64,000 nt of DNA from Synechococcus sp. CBW1004 (GTDB lineage: Bacteria; Cyanobacteriota; Cyanobacteriia; PCC-6307; Cyanobiaceae), in assembly GCF_015840715.1 (NCBI RefSeq), contig NZ_CP060397.1:558001-622000 (forward strand), given 5' to 3'. Below, piece by piece: positions 8,008 through 44,734 of this stretch. The stretch's first letter is position 1. Each line of letters starts with the position of its first letter. Under the pieces are notes generated by a model. That model searched no databases. It was not told where the DNA came from and saw only the letters and a list, made by a program, of their open reading frames with translations. Position numbers and translations under genes: made by a program.

Positions 8008-9882
8008 ATGAGTGCCGCCCGCTCCCGCCGCAACGGCTGCCACGGGACCACCACCGACCCTCGCCCCAGGGGCGGGGTGGTGACCGTGGCGCTGCTGGGC
8101 ATGCCGAACACCGGCAAATCCACCCTCTACAACCGGCTCACCGGCGGCAACGCTCAGATCGCCAACTGGCCGGGCCTGACGGTGGAGCTGCTGCGCGGCG
8201 CCATGCCCTCCGACCGCCAGGGCCGCGCCTATCAGCTGGTGGATCTGCCCGGCATCCACGACCTCAGCGGCAGCAGCGAGGACGAAGCGGTGGTGCAGCG
8301 CTTCCTGAGGCAGACGCCGCCGGATCTGCTGCTGCTGGTGCTCAACGCCAGTCAGATCGCCAGCCAGCTGCGCTTCCTGCTGCAGCTCAGAGCCCTGGCC
8401 ATCCCCACGGTGGTGGCCCTGAACATGAGCGATGAGGCGCGGCGCTTCGGCCTCTCCATCGATGCTCACGGCCTGGAGCATGCGCTGGGAGTGCCCGTGC
8501 TGGCGGTGAGCGCTCGCCGCAACCAGGGCATCTCGGAGCTGATCGCGAGCGTGCACCAGCTGGGCGAGGGCCTGAGCGGCCCACCGCGGGAGGCCGATCT
8601 GGATCAGGCCCTGGCCGACATCCCCCAGGAGTGGGTGGAGACCCTGCTCTCGCAACACGTGCAGCTGCCGCCGCGCCAGGTGAACCGCCGCACGCGCCGG
8701 GCCGATCGCCTGCTGCTCCACCCCTTGGTGGGAGTGCTGCTGTTTCTGGCCATCGTTCTGGGCCTGTTCCAGCTGCTCTATGCGGTGGGCACGCCGGCTC
8801 AGGATCTGGTGGGCAGTGGGATCGACTGGATCCAGGAGGCGCTTCTGGAGCCGGTGCTGACGGCCCTCAACACCCCCCGGTTCCTGCGCGATTTTCTGAT
8901 CGACGGCGTCTGGCTGGGGGTGGGCACGGTGGCCACCTTCCTGCCGATCATCTTTCTCTTCTACCTGGTGCTCGCCGTGGTGGAAGACTCCGGCTATCTG
9001 CCCCGGGCGGCCTTCCTGATGGATGGCTTCATGCGCTGGCTCGGCCTGGATGGCCGCGCCTTCGTGCTGCAGGTGATCGGCTTCGGCTGCAACGTGCCCT
9101 CGATCATGGGCACGCGGGTGATCCGCGACCGCGGCATGCGCCTGCTCTCGATGCTGGTGATTCCGTTTGCGCTCTGTCAGGCGCGGTTGACGGTGTTCCT
9201 GTTCATGGCCGACGTGTTCTTCCCGAAGCCCTGGTGGGCGCCGGGATTGGTGGTGTTCGGCTTCTATGTGCTCAGCTTCGTGGCAGTGGTGATCACCGGA
9301 CTGGTGTTCAAACGGGTCTATCCGAGCCAGGAGGCCTTCGTGCTGGAGTTGCCTCCCTATCGCGCGCCGAGCCTCAGCACGATCCTGCGGCGGGGATGGA
9401 CGCAGATGCTGAACTTCATGGTGACCACCCGCAGCTTCATCGTGCTCGGGGCAGCGGCGATCTGGCTGCTCACGAACCTGCCGCCCGGTGCGATCCAGGG
9501 CAGTGGCAGCACGATCGCCGACTGGATCGGTGGCCTGTTCCAGCCGCTGCTCGGGCCGATCGGCATGAATCCGGCACTCACCGTGTCGCTCTTCTTCGGC
9601 TTCATCGCCAAGGAGATCCTGCTCGGGGCGATGGCCGTGATCTACCGGACGAGTGAAGTCGATCTGGGCGGGGTGATCAGCGGCCTGATCACCCCCTTGC
9701 AGGCACTCAGTTTCATGACCTTCGTGCTCCTCTACACCCCCTGCCTGGGGACGGTGGCGGCCCAGCTCCAGGAATCGAAGAGCCGCGCCTTCGCGCTGCT
9801 GTCGCTTGGCTGGTCGTTGCTGCTCGCCTGGCTGATGGCCCTGGTGGTGTTCCAGGGCGGTCGCCTGCTGGGTTTCGGTTGA
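8008..9882 (+). CDS. feoB: Ferrous iron transport protein B
   Basis: A 624-residue inner-membrane Fe2+ importer with an N-terminal G-protein domain. G1 is GMPNTGKST near residue 31, G3 is DLPGIHDL, and G4 is LNMSD. Two Gate-type membrane domains follow, with GFGCNVPSIMGTRV in the first, and the protein ends in hydrophobic helices. It is shorter than E. coli FeoB (773), mainly in the loops and C-terminus. The ATG at 8008 is chosen because homology starts about 25 residues later; upstream in-frame codons look non-coding. Its stop abuts the stop of convergent feoA, an unusual arrangement because feoA usually precedes feoB. Confidence 0.95.
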   Translation: MSAARSRRNGCHGTTTDPRPRGGVVTVALLGMPNTGKSTLYNRLTGGNAQIANWPGLTVELLRGAMPSDRQGRAYQLVDLPGIHDLSGSSEDEAVVQRFLRQTPPDLLLLVLNASQIASQLRFLLQLRALAIPTVVALNMSDEARRFGLSIDAHGLEHALGVPVLAVSARRNQGISELIASVHQLGEGLSGPPREADLDQALADIPQEWVETLLSQHVQLPPRQVNRRTRRADRLLLHPLVGVLLFLAIVLGLFQLLYAVGTPAQDLVGSGIDWIQEALLEPVLTALNTPRFLRDFLIDGVWLGVGTVATFLPIIFLFYLVLAVVEDSGYLPRAAFLMDGFMRWLGLDGRAFVLQVIGFGCNVPSIMGTRVIRDRGMRLLSMLVIPFALCQARLTVFLFMADVFFPKPWWAPGLVVFGFYVLSFVAVVITGLVFKRVYPSQEAFVLELPPYRAPSLSTILRRGWTQMLNFMVTTRSFIVLGAAAIWLLTNLPPGAIQGSGSTIADWIGGLFQPLLGPIGMNPALTVSLFFGFIAKEILLGAMAVIYRTSEVDLGGVISGLITPLQALSFMTFVLLYTPCLGTVAAQLQESKSRAFALLSLGWSLLLAWLMALVVFQGGRLLGFG

Positions 9883-10233: not shown

Positions 10234-11796
10234 TCAGAACCGGAAGGAGGTCTTCACCAGGCCGCCCAGCTGCCGGAAGCTCTCGCCGCTCGGCGTGTCT
10301 CCTCCCAGCGGCCGGCTCAGATAGAACAGTGCCGGCGTGATGGCGATGTTGTCCGTCACCTGGAACTTGTACCACCACTCCCAGACGACGTTGCCGTCAT
10401 TCGGTGTGGCGCCACCCTCCAGGCTCGTCGCGAAGGTGGGCTGTCCCACCCCCATCCCCAGCGCGTTGCCCGCCGCAAACACGTCCTGCCACTGCAGGCC
10501 CACGCTCCACGACTGGCTGGTCGTCACCAGGCCGTCGCTGGCGACACCGCTGTCATAGCTGGTGCTGTTCACGCCCCAGCCGGCGCTGATCGAGGGGATC
10601 CAGCCCGCCCTGGCCGGTTGCCAGTAGCCGCTCAGCCCGAAGGCCGAGGTGGTGCCGGGGTTGCTGAAGCTGCTCAGCGCGAAGTTGGTGCCATAGACAA
10701 TCAGGTCGTTGCCGTTCTGGATCGACGAATAGATCGCCGCCAGGCCCCAGTTCTCCTGGCTGTAGCCCACCTGCACCGTGCCGGTTCCCCCGGATCCCGC
10801 CGTGGCGATGCCACCGTCTGCCGGTGATCCCACATCCCCGTTGGCGGCCACATAGTTGGCGCTGATCGCAAAGCCGTTCTTCTGCCACCACACCCCGGCG
10901 CCGGCGCCGAGGTTCTTGTTGTAGGCCGCCGGTGCACCGCCGAGGGTGAGCACATCCAGCACCGTTTCAGCCGGATACACGCTCGGCCAGATCGCCAGCA
11001 TGTCCTCCTGACCGATGCGGCCGCCGATGCTGAAGGTGAAATCGCCGAGCGGGAACTGATAGAAGAGACGATCGATCGCCACCACATCACGGCCATCGGC
11101 GCCGCCGAGATCCTCCTGGAACGCCACCTCCAGCTGCGACAGGCTGCTGGGCCCCGCCCCCCCGAAGCTGCTGGCGGCAAAATTGCCGCCGCGCAGGTTG
11201 GTGCGCAGCAGATCCTTACCGCTGAAGCTGGTGTCGAACGTCAGCTGCAGGTCGTAGTTGAACGTGGTGGCTCCATAGAGCTCCCGGCTGCCGTCCACCA
11301 GTGCATCGGCGCTGCCGCCGAAGCTGTTAGCGCCCAGCACGAAGGTGGCCTGGCCCGACAGCTTGGTGGTGGTCGAGAACTGGGTGCTCTCCAGCTCTCC
11401 CACCTTGGCCTCCAGGCCATCGACCCGGCCGCGCAGCACCGCCAGCTCCTTCTCGAACTCCGCCATCAGCGTCCTGAGCTCGTCGGTCACCTCGCTGATG
11501 CGATCGAGGCAGGCATTCAGCAGGGCCGCGGCCTCGTAGCGGCTCATCGCCTGCCCCCCCTTGAAGGTGCCGTTGGGATAGCCCGCCACGCAGCCGTAGC
11601 GCTCGATCAGGTTGCTCAGCGCCTGATACGCCCAGTCCGTCGGACGCACATCCGAGAACTGGCTGATCGAGGTCACCTGCTCCCTGGTGGCGTAGGCATT
11701 GACCCCGGCAAGATTCAGCTCGGCGGCCTGGCCTGACAGCGGGACCAGGAACCCCAGGGCCATCGGTGCCAGGGCCCAGCGCTGCATAGGTGTCAT
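10234..11796 (-). CDS. SLH-domain outer membrane porin (iron-uptake porin type)
   Basis: A 520-residue outer-membrane protein with a signal peptide (hydrophobic run to about residue 24, cleavage near GQAAEL). An SLH domain follows at about residues 45-95 (FSDVRPTDWAYQALSNLIER, then YPNGTFKGGQAMSRYEAAAL), which binds the cell wall. Next come a short coiled coil (105-135, ending GLEAKVGELES) and a long OprB-like beta-barrel ending in the aromatic KTSFRF. Cyanobacterial porins of this layout are annotated as iron-uptake porins. It is divergent from ferritin across a Fur-box-like site, which supports iron regulation. The start is ATG 11796, with a second ATG at 11787. Confidence 0.92.
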   Translation of the reverse strand: MTPMQRWALAPMALGFLVPLSGQAAELNLAGVNAYATREQVTSISQFSDVRPTDWAYQALSNLIERYGCVAGYPNGTFKGGQAMSRYEAAALLNACLDRISEVTDELRTLMAEFEKELAVLRGRVDGLEAKVGELESTQFSTTTKLSGQATFVLGANSFGGSADALVDGSRELYGATTFNYDLQLTFDTSFSGKDLLRTNLRGGNFAASSFGGAGPSSLSQLEVAFQEDLGGADGRDVVAIDRLFYQFPLGDFTFSIGGRIGQEDMLAIWPSVYPAETVLDVLTLGGAPAAYNKNLGAGAGVWWQKNGFAISANYVAANGDVGSPADGGIATAGSGGTGTVQVGYSQENWGLAAIYSSIQNGNDLIVYGTNFALSSFSNPGTTSAFGLSGYWQPARAGWIPSISAGWGVNSTSYDSGVASDGLVTTSQSWSVGLQWQDVFAAGNALGMGVGQPTFATSLEGGATPNDGNVVWEWWYKFQVTDNIAITPALFYLSRPLGGDTPSGESFRQLGGLVKTSFRF

Positions 11797-26569: not shown

Positions 26570-27184
26570 TCAGCCTGCAATGCCGCTGACCAGCAGAAAA
26601 GCGTTGATCAGAACGATCAGCCCAGCGCAGAGCCAGCCCAGCTGCAGCAGCCAGCGGGGAGTGGGGAGAGCGGCCATCAATTGCCGATTCGCGCAGAAGA
26701 TCATCAGCGGGATGACAGCAAAGGGCAGCTGCAGGCTGAGCACCACCTGGCTGAGCACCAGCAGTTCTGTTGTGGCGCCCTCACCCATCCACACAACCAC
26801 TGCCAAAGCCGGAATCAACGCGAGGCTGCGGGTGAGCAGCCGTCGCTGCCAATCGGGCAGCCGCAGCTGCAGAAAGCCCTCCATCACCACCTGGCCGGCC
26901 ATGGTGCCGGTGATCGTGGAGCTCTGCCCGGCTGCCAGCAATGCCAGCGCAAACAACAGGCTGGCCAGTGGGGTGCCGAGCAGCGGGCTCAGCAGGCGAT
27001 AGGCCTCGGCGATCTCCTCGATCGGCTGCTCCACCACGCCGTGGAAACTGCCAGCAGCCACCACCAAAATCGCGGCGTTCACCAGAAACGCCAAGGTCTG
27101 GGCCACCACCACATCAGCGGTGGCGTAGCGCAACGCACGCTGCACACCACCCACCAGATCACCCCAACGGCGCGTCTGCATCAA
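26570..27184 (-). pseudogene. mntH: mntH 3' part (NRAMP transporter C-terminal half)
   Basis: Encodes MQTRRWGDLVGGVQRALRYA onward, through five hydrophobic segments with AGQSSTITGTMAGQ (the TM10-type motif of NRAMP) to the stop at 26570. It continues directly from the fragment at 30147-30783: removing the intervening IS and one tcaa target copy restores HTGLMQTRRW. NRAMP proteins import Mn2+ (or Fe2+) with protons. This half has lost its own start and cannot make a functional transporter. Confidence 0.92.
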
Positions 27185-27313
27185 GGGAACCTCGAATAAT
27201 CGCCGTCCATCTGTAGGCAGAACGGACAAAAAGCCTGCATCATCTGACCCTGCTTTCAGCAGGGAGCAGCAGTTCGGAAAGAGCGCTAGTCTTTGATCTG
27301 TTTGCTTGTCTCT

Positions 27314-31107: not shown

Positions 31108-31901
<794 letters not shown>

Positions 31902-31905
<4 letters not shown>

Positions 31906-37290: not shown

Positions 37291-37613
37291 GGCTTGAGGA
37301 TCGACCCGCGTGTTTCGACCATGAACCTCCATGCCGACACCACCGCAGGGCGGAGCGGCTCCTGTCGTGCCTTGGCCGACTGGAACAGATCGCAGGCGAT
37401 CGGGAAATCAAGCGGCGAGGCGTGCTGCGCCGCGTCGAGCAGTTCGGCCAGGGCCACCTCCAGCTCCTGCAGGCTGTCGCGATAGCGGCCGTCCGCCAGG
37501 CGGGAACGGGCGTCCTGGCGCAGGGCCTCGGCGTTGATCGTGCGCACATCCCGCAGGCCGCGGAAGATGGCATCGACCTCGCCGGCCACCAGGCGCAGAT
37601 CGGCGCGGATCAC
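37236..37613 (-). CDS. Hypothetical helical protein
   Basis: A 125-residue, mainly alpha-helical soluble protein (VAGEVDAIFRGLRDVRTINA, then SLQELEVALAELLDAAQHAS). No known motif. Its start overlaps the stop of the upstream gene by 4 bases (ATGA), and it overlaps the downstream gene, so three genes form one translationally coupled unit. Function unknown. Confidence 0.6.
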   Translation of the reverse strand: MIRADLRLVAGEVDAIFRGLRDVRTINAEALRQDARSRLADGRYRDSLQELEVALAELLDAAQHASPLDFPIACDLFQSAKARQEPLRPAVVSAWRFMVETRGSILKPWLHSLLSSSDRSGFSSA

Positions 37614-38813: not shown

Positions 38814-39431
38814 TCACCCAGCCAGCTCCAGCCACCAGCCGGTCCCAGGACCCTCGACCATCCAGCGCCGTCCCCAGTTCCGCTCCGAGTAGCGCTGAGC
38901 CTTGCCACTACCCAACGCAGTGCTCACATAGCCGCCGCCGACCAGATCGGCCTCGCCGTTGGGGTCATGCATCAGCAGCGTGCGGGTGGCCGGATCCCAG
39001 CCGATCACCAGGCTCCAGTGGCCGCCACCCGAGGGAGCCGACACCGGACCGTGATGCAGCCAGCCCACAGGAACAGGAATCCCCATCCTGAGCTGGGCGA
39101 TCAGCTGCTCGATGCGGCCATCGGTGCGGAACTCGGCCTGAATCCCCAGAGTTTGCAGCGTCCGGATCTGGGCAGCTGCAACGGTGGTATCCCCATGGCG
39201 CTGCAGCAAGGCCAGGTAGCGATCATCCAGCTGCCCGGCTCCGGCAAGGCACCCCGGCCTGAGGAAGGCGGCGGCCATCGCGCAGGTGGAGGAGAAGCAC
39301 ATCCGCAAGCCCTGGCTGGTGGCGCTGTCGCGCTGGCACAGGTACGGCACCGGAAGGGTGATCGGCTGGTTGAACGCCGCGCTGGCCTTGTTCGTCTTGA
39401 ATTTCTGGGTTGAGATCGTGGACGGGGACAT
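38814..39431 (-). CDS. C39-like papain-fold peptidase
   Basis: A 205-residue protein. QGLRMCFSSTCAMAAAFLRP holds a Cys in the position of the C39 nucleophile (Cys50). SGGGHWSLVIGWD supplies the His, and MHDPNGEAD the Asp. This is the peptidase_C39_2 pattern. Because no ABC transporter or signal peptide is fused, a cytosolic or surface processing role is possible. ATG 39431 precedes the conserved part; the frame stays open upstream to 39602. It is divergent from the small gene at 39498. Confidence 0.65.
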   Translation of the reverse strand: MSPSTISTQKFKTNKASAAFNQPITLPVPYLCQRDSATSQGLRMCFSSTCAMAAAFLRPGCLAGAGQLDDRYLALLQRHGDTTVAAAQIRTLQTLGIQAEFRTDGRIEQLIAQLRMGIPVPVGWLHHGPVSAPSGGGHWSLVIGWDPATRTLLMHDPNGEADLVGGGYVSTALGSGKAQRYSERNWGRRWMVEGPGTGWWLELAG

Positions 39432-39795: not shown

Positions 39796-40203
39796 ATGGA
39801 ACCCCGCCGGCTGGTGGTCTGGATCGCGGCCGGCATCCTGGGTTTCCAGGGCGGCACACTCGCCCTCGACCTGCTCAACTGCACCGTCCTCTCCTGGCTC
39901 TACGTCCGCCGGTATGGGCTGGAGCGGTTGGAGCCATCCGTCACGATCGAGCAGAGGCCACCAGCGGGACTCGGAGGGCCTGAAGCCGGTGACAGGTCGC
40001 GTGATCAGCCCCAGCCCGCCAGTTCACCGCATCAGACGCCTCCGAAGCCGGGCCCTGGGACGGTGACCATCGATCCCACCGAGGTCTTCTGCAACCGGCC
40101 CCGCAGCCGCGTGGATGACGCGGTCGGCCAGGGGCTCAGCATCCTCGCCGGCCTCGCCCTGGGGGGATCGGTGGGGACTGGTGGCCCAGGGCAGAAGCCC
40201 TGA
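39796..40203 (+). CDS. Hypothetical membrane protein
   Basis: A 135-residue protein with one N-terminal hydrophobic segment (VVWIAAGILGFQGGTLALDL) and a second near the C-terminus (GLSILAGLALGGSVG), joined by a Pro-rich, polar linker. The family is not recognised. The ATG at 39796 follows a GGG. It lies upstream of the HTH gene in the putative island end. Confidence 0.5.
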   Translation: MEPRRLVVWIAAGILGFQGGTLALDLLNCTVLSWLYVRRYGLERLEPSVTIEQRPPAGLGGPEAGDRSRDQPQPASSPHQTPPKPGPGTVTIDPTEVFCNRPRSRVDDAVGQGLSILAGLALGGSVGTGGPGQKP

Positions 40204-40268: not shown

Positions 40269-40457
40269 ATGTGGTTGGAGACCGAGGAGATCAGCAAGCA
40301 GCTCCGGATCAGCCGTCAGACCCTCTGGCGCCTGCGCCGCCGTCGTCTGCTGAAGGAAGGGCAGCACTGGACCCGCAAGACCCCAGGCTGCCCCCGTTCC
40401 GACATCCTGTGGCACTCGTTCCGCTGTGAGCTCGCCCTGGGCCGGGTTCCCCACTAG
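40269..40457 (+). CDS. AlpA/excisionase-like HTH protein
   Basis: A 62-residue protein whose MWLETEEISKQLRISRQTLW followed by RLRRRRLLKEGQHW is the winged-HTH of AlpA/excisionase-type proteins (first helix, turn, recognition helix, short wing). It lies convergent to the integrase; the two TAG stops overlap on ctag (40454-40457). Such proteins direct excision or regulate the integrase of genomic islands. Confidence 0.7.
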   Translation: MWLETEEISKQLRISRQTLWRLRRRRLLKEGQHWTRKTPGCPRSDILWHSFRCELALGRVPH

Positions 40458-41941
40458 CCCAAGCCGGCAGCCTGGAGTTTCCTGGCCAGAGCGATGAGCT
40501 CTGGCGTCACACCCGCCGGCAACGCCGGAGTCACCCCTGCCGCAGCGGTCGCAGGGGCTCCGGCATCCCTTGCCTCAGGATTGCGCCCTTCATCAAGGTC
40601 CCGCTGACGCAGCAGGTGGGCCAACTTGTGCTCCGCACGCTCCTCGACCAGATAGCGGCTGGCGTGCACCGCTTCGCTGTGACCCATCGAGGCCGCCTTG
40701 ACGGCTGTGGACCAGGTGGTCGTCGCTTTGGCCCGCAGCGCCCAGGCATGGCGCAGGTCATAGAGCTTGCAGCGGTCGCGCTTGGCCTTGGGTTTCGGCT
40801 TGCCGGGCAGCTGCCGCGGTTGGTGATAGCCGTAGAGCTTCACCGGGATCTCCCGATCCTCACGGCCGCGGTTGCGCAGCCAATGGGCCAGGTGGATCGA
40901 CAGCTCGCCATTGTTGAAGAACTGCACGGTGCCGTCCGCCCGCATCGCGGTCTTGACCGGATGGCGGCGCCTCAGCTCCGCGAGCATCGCCTTCGAGAAG
41001 TCGCGATCGTCCAGGCGGTACCGCTCCACCCACTCCCTGGGCAGGGGCAATGCAAAGCGATGCCCCGTCTTGGTCTCGGCGCCATCGCCATGGCTGACGA
41101 AGCTCCCGACCTCGATCACGCCGGCGTCGGCCTCCACGTCTCCGGGCAGCCGGTCGATGTGCCACACCTCATGGCCGCGCAGGCCGTAGGTGGCGATGAC
41201 GGCCATCACCCAGCCCCTCAGTGGATCGCTCTGTTGGAGGTGGTCCAGCCAGGCCTGGATGTCCTCGGTCCTTGGAATGAAGCGGGGAGCGGGAGCGCGC
41301 AGCTTGCCGGCGCTTTTCTTGAGCTGGTCGAGCTTGGCGCGTAGGTCGGGGGTGGCAATCGGAATGCCTCGCTGGGCGAGCTAGTTCACCATCTGGATCA
41401 CGCCATAGAACCCCTTGCTGTTGTATGGCCGGCGGATCAGCTGATGGCTTGGATCTTCACGCCAGAGTTGCAGTGAGACAGGTGTGTACAGGCAGAACTC
41501 CTCCAGCTGGCCGGTGGTGGCGATCTGATCCGGATCGAAGGTCAGTCCGAAATAGCCCTTCGGCCGGAAGCAGACGAATGGATTGCGGTCCCGTGCCTTG
41601 GGCCCTCCCGGTGCGATCCAGGTCTGGACCAGTCCGCACAGCTCCCCCCAGCTGAGTTGCCGCTGCAACGGCTCGCCAGCCCTGGAGGCCTCCAGTTCGT
41701 CCCAGATCCGGACAGGCCAGCCCTGGGTGCCCCGCTCGTGGACCCTCAGCAGCAGGTCGGCCAGATCCCAGCAGGCCTGGTCGTCATCCACCCGGTATCC
41801 GCGCGCGGCCTGCTGGCGGCGGGGCGGAAGGGTGTCGTACACCTGGATGAAGGGGCTTCTGGGCGCCTGCTTGATCCGGTAGCGGCAGCCTGCGGCCTGG
41901 AGCCGCAGCTGTGCCTGAGTGAACGTGTCCTTGGCACGCAT
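40454..41941 (-). pseudogene. Tyrosine recombinase (integrase) with in-frame amber stop
   Basis: One continuous frame of 495 codons interrupted by a single TAG at 41381-41383 (after GFYGVIQMVN; downstream continues LAQRGIPIATPDLRAKLDQL). The catalytic half has TYGLRGHEVWHI (Arg), YDLRHAWALRA (His-x-x-Arg) and MGHSEAVHASRY (His, Tyr). The first half would be the core-binding region. It sits 180 bases from tRNA-Lys, the usual integration target. Either the gene is dead by point mutation or the TAG is read through; both the upstream (186 residues) and downstream parts are otherwise intact. Confidence 0.85.
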
Positions 41942-42084
41942 GACAGGGGGGTCTGTCTCAACCCCTCAGTCTCGCCAGGGCTTGAGGAACTCAGTTCCTC
42001 AAAACTGCTACGCAGGGGGTCACCTGGCTACGCACTGGTACAGCTGAACCCCTGTTTCCGGGAGGCTGAGAGCCCTTGCGATTA

Positions 42085-42100
42085 CTGGCTTTTGAGCCAG
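42085..42100 (-). terminator. Hairpin downstream of tRNA-Lys
   Basis: Perfect 6-bp inverted repeat ctggct/agccag with a 4-base loop (tttg), 21-36 bases beyond the 3' end of the minus-strand tRNA. No long T-run follows, so the call is tentative. A second palindrome gcaagcttgc lies at 42103-42112. Confidence 0.35.
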
Positions 42101-42120
42101 AAGCAAGCTTGCGTCTGATA

Positions 42121-42192
42121 TGGGTCGCCTGAGATTCGAACTCAGGACCAATCGGTTAAAAGCCGAGTGCTCTACCGCTGAGCTAGCGACCC
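42121..42192 (-). tRNA. trnK: tRNA-Lys (anticodon TTT)
   Basis: Cloverleaf on the minus strand: acceptor gggtcgc/gcgaccc, D arm gctcagcggtagagc, anticodon loop cttttaa (TTT), variable loop, and T arm with ttcgaat. No CCA is encoded. The tRNA 3' end faces the integrase, the normal orientation for a tRNA-embedded attachment site. A displaced second copy of the 3' end was not found in this window. Confidence 0.95.
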
Positions 42193-42355
42193 TGGTTGCA
42201 GTACGCCTTCCCTGCTGGGGACTGCGTTCTGGCCTGCCTCCGGACTGATGGCCCTGCAGACCCCAAGAACGTATCACCCGACCATCCCCCCTCTGCAAGC
42301 GCCCGACACCTGGTGTGCAGGTTGGCCGGGAGGGGCTCTGAGAGCACGGCGGACA

Positions 42356-42895
42356 ATGGCATCAGACCGTTCTGTCGTCATGCCCCGAGCCCCCTGGCCC
42401 GATCCGCAGATCCATCCCGAGGCCTGGGTGTCGGAGCAGGCCGTGCTGATCGGTGATGTGCGCATGGCGGCCGGAGCCAGCCTCTGGCCCACCGCCGTCG
42501 CCCGCGGTGATGTCTGCCCGATCACGATCGGTGGGGACAGCAATGTGCAGGACGGTGCCGTGCTGCATGGCGATCCCGGACAGCCGGTGACCATCGGCCG
42601 TGAGGTGACCATCGGCCATCGGGCCGTGATCCATGGAGCCACGCTCAACGACGGCTGTCTGATCGGCATCGGCGCGATCGTGCTCAATGGCGTCACGGTG
42701 GGCGAAGGGGCCCTGGTGGCCGCCGGTTCGGTGGTCACGAAGGACGTGCCTCCCGGCGCTCTGGTGATGGGTGCGCCGGCGCAGGTGAAACGCGAGCTCA
42801 GCGCCGAGGCGATCGCCGGCCAGCGTGAGCACGCCCGCCGCTATCGGCTGCTGGCGATGGTGCATGCCGGGCGGGGACACGATCCCGGTTTCTGA
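42356..42895 (+). CDS. Gamma-carbonic-anhydrase-like hexapeptide-repeat protein
   Basis: A 179-residue left-handed beta-helix protein. Hexapeptide repeats ([30 protein letters not shown]) and His residues at VLHGD, TIGHR and VIHGA resemble the zinc ligands of gamma-CA/CaiE/PaaY proteins. Several gamma-CA family members lack measurable activity, so the function is uncertain. Starts at 42356 or 42380 (ATG) are both possible. Confidence 0.85.
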
Positions 42896-43285: not shown

Positions 43286-44734
43286 GTGACCGCTGAACTC
43301 CTGGTCATCGGAGCCGGCCTGGCCGGCACGGAAGCCGCCTGGCAGATCGCTCGAGCTGGTCTGCGGGTGCGGCTTGTGGAGATGCGCCCGGTGGTTCGCT
43401 CTCCGGCGCACCACAGCGCTGAATTCGCCGAGTTGGTCTGCAGCAACAGCTTCGGTGCCCTGAGCAGTGATCGGGCTGCGGGCCTGCTGCAAGAAGAGCT
43501 GCGGCGCCTTGACTCGCTGGTGATCGGCACCGCTGACTCCCATGCCGTTCCCGCCGGCGGAGCCCTGGCCGTCGATCGCGGTCGCTACAGCGCTGCCCTC
43601 ACCGCCGCCCTCGAGCAGCATCCGCTGGTGACGGTGGAGCGTCGCGAGCAGACCGAACTGCCGCCGCAGGGCCAGATTGCCGTGCTGGCCACCGGTCCGC
43701 TCACCAGTGAGCCTCTGGCGGAGCACCTGCGCTCCTTCACCGGTCTGGACGATTGTCATTTCTTCGATGCCGCCAGCCCGATCGTCGAGGGCGAGAGCAT
43801 CGATCTGAATGTGGCCTTCCGCGCCTCCCGCTACGACAAGGGCGACGCCGACTACATCAACTGCCCCATGGATCAGGAGCAGTACCTCGCCTTCCGCGAG
43901 GCGCTGCTGGCCGCCGAGCAGGCCGAACTCAAGGACTTCGAGCAGGAGAGCGCCCATTTCTTCGAGGGCTGCCTGCCGATCGAGGAGCTCGCTCGCCGCG
44001 GTGAGGACACGATGCGCTACGGGCCGCTCAAGCCGATCGGCCTCTGGGATCCCCGATGGGGCGATGTCAACGACCGCGACGTGCGCCGTGCGAAGCGCGC
44101 CTATGCCGTGGTGCAGCTGCGTCAGGAGGATAAGGACGGCCGGCTGTGGAACCTGGTCGGCTTCCAGACCAACCTCAAGTGGGGGGAGCAGAAGCGGGTG
44201 CTGCGTTTGATTCCGGGCCTGGAGAACGCCGAGTTCGTGCGTTTCGGCGTGATGCACCGCAACACCTTTCTGGAGTCACCGCGGCTGCTCGATCCCACCC
44301 TGCAGTTCCGCACGCGCCCCACGCTGCTGGCGGCGGGCCAGATCACCGGCACCGAGGGTTACGCGGCGGCGGTGGCCGGTGGCTGGCTGGCGGGCACCAA
44401 CGCCGCCCGGCTGGCGCGGGGCCTGGAGCCGCTCGTGCTGCCGCGCACCTCGATGATTGGTGCGCTCACCCACTTCATCGCCGAAGCCCCCTGTGGCGGG
44501 GCGGGCAAACGGGGCGGCTTCCAGCCGATGCCCCCCAACTTCGGCCTGCTGCCGGAGCTGAGCGAGCGCATCCGCGACAAACGGCGTCGCTACGGCGCCT
44601 ACCGCGACCGGGCCCTGGCGGATCTGGCGGCTGTGATCCGGGCTCAGGATGTCCCGCCAGGAGTCGCCATCCACACGGGCGCAGCCTTGGGGCCGCTCGC
44701 TGAGCCGGCGCCCCTGCTGCACACCGTCCCCTGA
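43286..44734 (+). CDS. trmFO: FAD/folate-dependent tRNA (m5U54) methyltransferase
   Basis: A 482-residue enzyme that methylates U54 of tRNA using methylene-tetrahydrofolate. [14 protein letters not shown] is the FAD-binding motif, [20 protein letters not shown] and [16 protein letters not shown] are TrmFO signatures, and NCPMDQEQY and CEAGAG-type end segments follow. The start is GTG 43286. It is 53 bases upstream of crtH on the same strand. Confidence 0.95.

Follow-up and report, generated by a model that had tools for sequence, protein, structure and literature searches.

The window analysed here is a stretch of 64,000 nucleotides (bases 558001–622000) of the single-contig genome of Synechococcus sp. 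CBW1004 (3,672,318 bases). Beside a tRNA-Lys gene it contains an interrupted integrase gene and, convergent with the latter, a small gene for an HTH protein, arranged as follows:

40269–40457, plus strand: candidate excisionase or directionality factor, an HTH protein of 62 aa (weak matches to HTH_17 and excisionase profiles, same-place homologues, family alignment)
40454–40457: CTAG common to both convergent stop codons, the 4-nt overlap of the HTH and integrase genes
40454–41941, minus strand: interrupted frame of the integrase (tyrosine recombinase), 495 codons (alignment and model of a 75% identical homologue)
41381–41383, minus strand: in-frame amber codon TAG, codon 187 of the integrase
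42121–42164, minus strand: putative attL core of 44 nt, corresponding to tRNA positions 29–72, from the anticodon region to the 3' end
42121–42192, minus strand: intact tRNA-Lys (anticodon TTT), the predicted integration target (ARAGORN)

The integrase starts about 180 bp from tRNA-Lys(UUU). An inverted repeat, TGGCTCAAAAGCCA, is located between them at 42060–42115, and similar repeats were seen by eye in several relatives.

The integrase was not assigned to any Pfam, PHROG or NCBIfam family in profile searches at E up to 1, and no match was obtained in a profile search of PDB sequences. A genome-wide PF00589 scan detected five other recombinases of this family and also missed the integrase of the window. 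The tyrosine recombinase motifs R, K, (H/Y)xxRH, (G)H and the nucleophilic Y are, however, recognizable in an alignment with its homologues (alignment A1), and the catalytic fold is present in a structure model of the 75% identical homologue L121 (pLDDT 76.9, pTM 0.49). Comparison of this model with solved structures returned lambda Int, protelomerase, XerA and Cre, with probabilities of 0.89–0.99 for the top 14, a best E-value of 1.6e-3, hence no match at E ≤1e-3, and low TM scores; viral integrases were matched as well (best E 3.2e-6). By its motifs and modelled fold, the protein is a diverged tyrosine recombinase with lambda Int as the nearest fold. The only phage records matched by the protein are three entries of cyanophage P-SS2 (29.6% identity over 58% of the query), and of 201 genomes surveyed in the bacterial family, 70 gave some match at E 1e-3, the majority of them short.

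Codon 187 is the sole in-frame stop (41383–41381, minus strand) ahead of the terminal TAG at codon 496, in agreement with the preliminary description of this DNA, which had noted a 495-codon frame with a TAG at 41381. Residues R255, K291, Y394, R397, H398, H421 and Y430 occupy the positions with catalytic roles in tyrosine recombinases. The same description had listed all catalytic residues as present; this holds for R255, K291, R397, H398, H421 and Y430, all of them downstream of codon 187, but box II begins with a Tyr (motif Y394-xx-R397-H398), which is nearly invariant among the homologues. Among the 16 distinct homologues covering the codon (50–84% identity, from matches of at least 48% identity), the position is occupied by TAC in 13, TAT in two and CAT in one, the last being a decayed fragment with further stops. 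The position thus holds a Tyr codon in 15 of 16. Five far homologues (37–39% identity, alignment A1) have Leu at this position. A single base change would have produced the amber codon, before the entire catalytic domain.

The part of the gene behind the stop is well preserved. The dN/dS ratio between the window and its closest homologue, L120 (84% identity), is 0.27 upstream of the stop and 0.08 downstream. Amino-acid replacements polarised by two outgroups number eight in the window lineage and six in that of L120 before the stop, and five and nine, respectively, after it. Of the columns conserved in the other near homologues, the window deviates before the stop at 7 of 54, and the seven others at 1–5; after the stop it deviates at 1 of 104, which is the stop column itself. 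In this latter part the window branch carries 10 polarised synonymous changes and a single codon-polarised nonsynonymous change versus roughly 30 expected, a rough figure that assumes neutrality along the whole branch. These figures point to a young stop or to a product that remains in use. The stop is considered recent because the post-stop part is still so strongly constrained, and the integrase was probably under purifying selection until lately.

The preliminary description had called the HTH gene excisionase-like and noted that it converges with the integrase gene on ctag. The 4-nt overlap is confirmed, and both homology and position support the gene as a candidate excisionase, a small HTH protein encoded beside an integrase as is usual for Xis/RDF proteins. 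The convergent overlap is 4 nt also in a near relative (L093) and in a marine siphovirus contig (L133), 6 nt in P-SS2 and 32 nt in the G134 element, and is replaced by a gap in G193; to judge from these gene arrangements, it is an old feature. An HTH match lies convergently right behind the integrase in 14 of the 40 other loci searched, and on the other strand in L042 and L046; none was found at the near-group integrase loci L041, L043, L044, L045 and L047. In P-SS2 the small hypothetical gene ACT65662 (L165:6982–7188), which overlaps the integrase stop, is homologous to the HTH gene of the window (E 3.9e-10 in a two-sequence search), yields weak excisionase profile matches and aligns with the HTH family. 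The authors of the P-SS2 paper found no excisionase (PMC2784084), and ACT65662 is therefore a candidate for this function.

The same tRNA-Lys(ttt) adjoins the integrase in 17 of 18 longer-match loci besides that of the window, and the remaining locus has 44 nt of the tRNA. In the named-genome set (29 loci) it was found at 19 of the 26 loci scanned, in Cyanobium, Vulcanococcus and Synechococcus strains and MAGs; the distant short matches L145–L148, with no tRNA-Lys in their stretch, were left out. The distance from the tRNA to the integrase match is about 180–200 bp in the near group and 240–310 bp in the far group. Within the genus (35 of 42 genomes examined), an integrase of this family, whole or in part, is located at tRNA-Lys in 15 genomes, with identity from 84% to about 37%, and no integrase match was found there in the other 20, two of them represented by short stretches. 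In nine genus loci (L089–L092, L095–L097, L103, L104), without an integrase of the window family at the site, the tRNA-Lys reads CCGACTGG instead of CCGATTGG, a difference that may reflect the clade.

The preliminary description had suggested a search for duplicates of the tRNA-Lys 3' end outside the window. None was detected in the window's own genome, so that a direct att repeat at both ends was not found here, while relatives do carry such duplicates. In a genome-wide search of 27 genomes, chosen for having the integrase or a duplicate and including drafts, tRNA positions 29–72 are repeated as a 44–45 bp copy in 15, on the same contig as the tRNA in seven; one further genome has a weak 32-nt match, and 11, including that of the window, have none. 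The spacing of the copies delimits elements of 6.9, 18.6, 31.7, 40.5, 48.5, 71.3 and 92.3 kb. Remnants of the 44-nt core were likewise not detected in positions 9001–42050 of the window (best local score 11, versus 10–14 in 30 shuffles) or at 505–558 kb of the genome (13, versus 11–15 in 20 shuffles). A 17-base att pattern with up to three mismatches has 12 sites in the genome, versus two for a reversed control; one is the tRNA itself. The other 11 were rejected: all have three mismatches, seven of them are accounted for by two repeated motifs, and the interval from 190 to 980 kb contains none.

A second att copy is present in 13 of the 19 genomes whose integrase is intact and in 1 of the 6 whose integrase is broken (Fisher p 0.056; some genomes were picked for the duplicate and drafts are included), and in 3/3 versus 0/3 of the single-contig genomes alone (p 0.10). 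Integrase integrity and att presence are thus only weakly associated. This table covers 25 of the 27 genomes, G222 being excluded as its contig ends within the gene and G009 as no such integrase was found at the tRNA. G134, initially scored as broken by a TGA, was counted as intact, since the match had overrun the natural stop of a 462-aa frame. Stacked copies also occur (L051, L052, L058): in G134 and G148 a partial tRNA-Lys directly precedes a second integrase or a decayed copy.

Behind the HTH gene, away from the tRNA, the window encodes further element-type genes followed by a mixed cargo:

39796–40203, plus strand: 135-aa protein of no known family, adjoining the HTH gene here and in L093 and L039
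39498–39725, plus strand: 75-aa ORF whose homologues in three genomes lie past the distal att
38817–39407, minus strand: endolysin C39-like domain (phrog_10051, E 8.5e-63), matching only residues 220–400 of a 403-aa relative
37362–37598, minus strand: remnant of a DnaB helicase of phage type, about 78 aa, 52–54% identical to element helicases and 39% to P-SS2 DnaB
11797–37361: mixed cargo with ArsP permease, P-type ATPase, GGDEF protein, serine hydrolase, Nramp and AcrB fragments, IS66 and DDE transposases, and ZnuA

The endolysin lacks a GH24 lysozyme domain, and the C39-only form is found also in L093 and L133. The gene order differs from that of the far relatives, whose 135-aa gene and full endolysin (GH24 plus C39) are found at the opposite end, flipped and immediately inside the distal att. 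The cargo region probably belongs to the same island as the integrase. Its Nramp (26573–27229) and AcrB (31117–31902) transporters are represented by C-terminal parts only, apparent signs of cargo decay.

The tRNA has a conserved 5' side and a variable 3' side, as expected for the site of a tRNA-targeted element. Among the 35 loci with the whole tRNA, the gene at 42248–42895 is present in 34 and that at 43286–44734, recognized by eye as TrmFO, in 32. In nine integrase-free relatives, the first 3.6 kb of the 3' side contain a regulator gene, LuxR-type by eye, followed by an OprB/SLH porin; in five of the nine the regulator lies 49–69 bp from the tRNA. The best DNA match of this regulator in the genome of the window is at 516692–517375, with an unchanged relative orientation and at a distance of 82.7 kb from the tRNA, and other genes of the integrase-free neighbourhood match at 359–366 kb. 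No hallmark element gene was found at 505–558 kb. The porin at 10234–11796 was dropped as the backbone edge of the island, being inverted relative to the porin of the nine relatives and multicopy in the genome. With the regulator so distant, the neighbourhood genes elsewhere and the porin inverted and multicopy, the insertion may extend over about 83 kb or rearrangement may have affected the region.

The preliminary description had proposed that this is where an island ends that recently lost its mobility. The conserved 5' side of the tRNA, the regulator displaced by 82.7 kb, the att duplicates in relatives and the young stop support this proposal at the level of sequence. The TAG need not have been the first or only loss, as the second att is probably absent from this genome too.

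The related elements in G134, G193 and G150 have in common genes for DnaG primase, DnaB helicase and Gp157 as well as Rad52-like, exonuclease-like and sigma-like genes, each identity being based on a single member. Cyanophage P-SS2 (GQ334450), a siphovirus of Prochlorococcus, resembles the window in its integrase (29–30% identical), convergent overlapping HTH gene, C39 endolysin domain and DnaB helicase, and its sigma factor and exonuclease-like gene match the elements of the window's relatives. It differs in its putative att, reported as a 53-bp match with 36 bp of tRNA-Met (PMC2784084), and in its virion genes, which were not found in the relatives' elements at the sensitivity used. A marine siphovirus contig (IMGVR_UViG_2775506767_000005 / PBTG01000079) shares with the window a 40% identical integrase, the HTH gene and the endolysin, and with the related elements also a primase. 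About 200 bp before its integrase it carries 42 nt of tRNA-Lys with a 95% match, which by its position is a putative attP. Unlike the window, it has scaffold, major head and tape-measure genes, and none of the searched phage ORFs encoding them matched the island of the window. A contig binned as ‘Myxococcales bacterium NP66’ (L133 / L149 / L166) shares size and match range with the IMG/VR virus record; the bin label looks wrong, because the contig has siphovirus structural genes and a tRNA-Lys attP.

In six att-bounded elements no virion gene was found among the tblastn matches (E 1e-5) of the phage ORFs searched, namely those at 1–50.0 and 83.4–96.2 kb of P-SS2 and at 29.5–62.3 kb of the marine contig. 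A phrog_2 terminase scan gave one weak match inside att-bounded elements (19 bits, G150); this profile also missed the phage contig itself and is thus a weak control. Elsewhere, in the G148 genome, a terminase-like frame with two stops (L161, G148:C45; phrog_2, E 5e-34) shares a contig with a partial integrase match and is perhaps a decayed prophage.

Several other explanations of the interrupted gene were considered. If the gene were intact and the TAG an error of sequencing or assembly, a difference of just one base and the preserved constraint would be accounted for; this is improbable, as the missing second att, the DnaB relic and the fragmented cargo indicate decay independently of this codon. 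Somewhat less likely still is read-through of the amber codon, by natural suppression or a suppressor tRNA, which would yield a little full-length integrase and keep the island mobile. The preliminary description had offered it as an alternative, and the fully constrained appearance of the post-stop region would fit, but a recent mutation accounts for this constraint equally well. No homologue examined has a stop at this position, and no second att was found as an excision partner. TAG is also used as a terminator: of the 41 ORFs predicted in the window with 150 aa or more, 36 terminate in TGA and five in TAG. The amber codon and the integrase's own stop account for two of these TAGs; apart from them, TAG terminates 3/39 ORFs and also the HTH gene. 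The read-through alternative is thus unsupported.

It is hardly credible that the two halves still act together, with a catalytic fragment restarted at codon 245 joining the N-terminal half, or that another integrase acts in trans. The GTG/ATG at codons 245–246 is the earliest ATG/GTG/TTG restart past the stop and five other PF00589 recombinases are available, but the restart drops residues 187–244 with many conserved columns, and no partner att site was found in the genome. A resident chromosomal integrase, inherited vertically outside any mobile element, would explain the nearly constant tRNA and the conserved 5' flank, but this was rejected as scarcely tenable given the patchy distribution in the genus, the second att copies bounding elements of 7–92 kb and the existence of phage relatives.

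Most probably, an integrative element derived from a cyanophage is in decay here, and the window contains its end next to the tRNA. Relatives carry the integrase at the same tRNA, frequently together with a convergent xis-like gene, and in several of them 44–45 bp repeats of the tRNA 3' half mark the boundaries. The integrase would have recombined attP with the half of tRNA-Lys(UUU) from the anticodon to the 3' end, an event that restores the tRNA and places a second copy of this half at the distal boundary; the HTH protein, acting as a directionality factor, would let the integrase excise the element again. The copy in the window would now be immobile and the island most likely fixed, because no far att copy was found, the recognized phage replication genes are reduced to the DnaB relic, and the amber codon lies ahead of the catalytic domain. 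The amber codon itself is ordinary decay.

More tentatively, the att-bounded tRNA-Lys elements of freshwater picocyanobacteria might be phage satellites, a possibility that we regard as rather doubtful. They would be relatives of P-SS2-type siphoviruses that retained the genes for integration, replication, lysis and a sigma factor, exchanged virion genes for metal and defence cargo and used the capsids of a tRNA-Lys-integrating helper similar to the marine contig, the window being a burnt-out copy. The tycheposons of Prochlorococcus, attributed to Hackl and co-workers in 2023, are reportedly also tRNA-bounded, with a tyrosine recombinase and large cargo. Compared by description only, islands of the window type share these traits and differ in the use of tRNA-Lys(UUU), in their Cyanobium, Vulcanococcus and Synechococcus hosts, and in the phage-type endolysin and replication genes. 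A second-hand account of tycheposons is given in PMC10872708. Island remnants reported in Synechococcus RS9917 resemble the window in being located at tRNA genes and carrying P-SS2-like lysozyme and integrase genes; they differ in occupying tRNA-Met and tRNA-Ser, in belonging to a marine strain and, in one case, in having a terminase gene (PMC2784084).

Lysogeny of picocyanobacteria is a long-standing puzzle. Early picocyanobacterial genomes had no identifiable prophage, yet integrase-bearing siphoviruses exist (PMC2784084; PMC6157547). Two prophages have since been reported in freshwater Synechococcus (PMC6157547), and 89 incomplete prophages in coastal sequences (PMC10696648). Among titles and abstract openings of the open-access literature, no paper was found on a tRNA-Lys integrase family in Cyanobium. 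A single tRNA site, the 44-bp att core, the integrase and the conserved HTH gene tie islands of freshwater strains to a marine temperate siphovirus. The tRNA-Lys int/HTH pair offers a defined test system and a candidate for the excisionase missing in the P-SS2 paper, and this integrase family and the P-SS2 excisionase candidate matter more than the amber codon itself.
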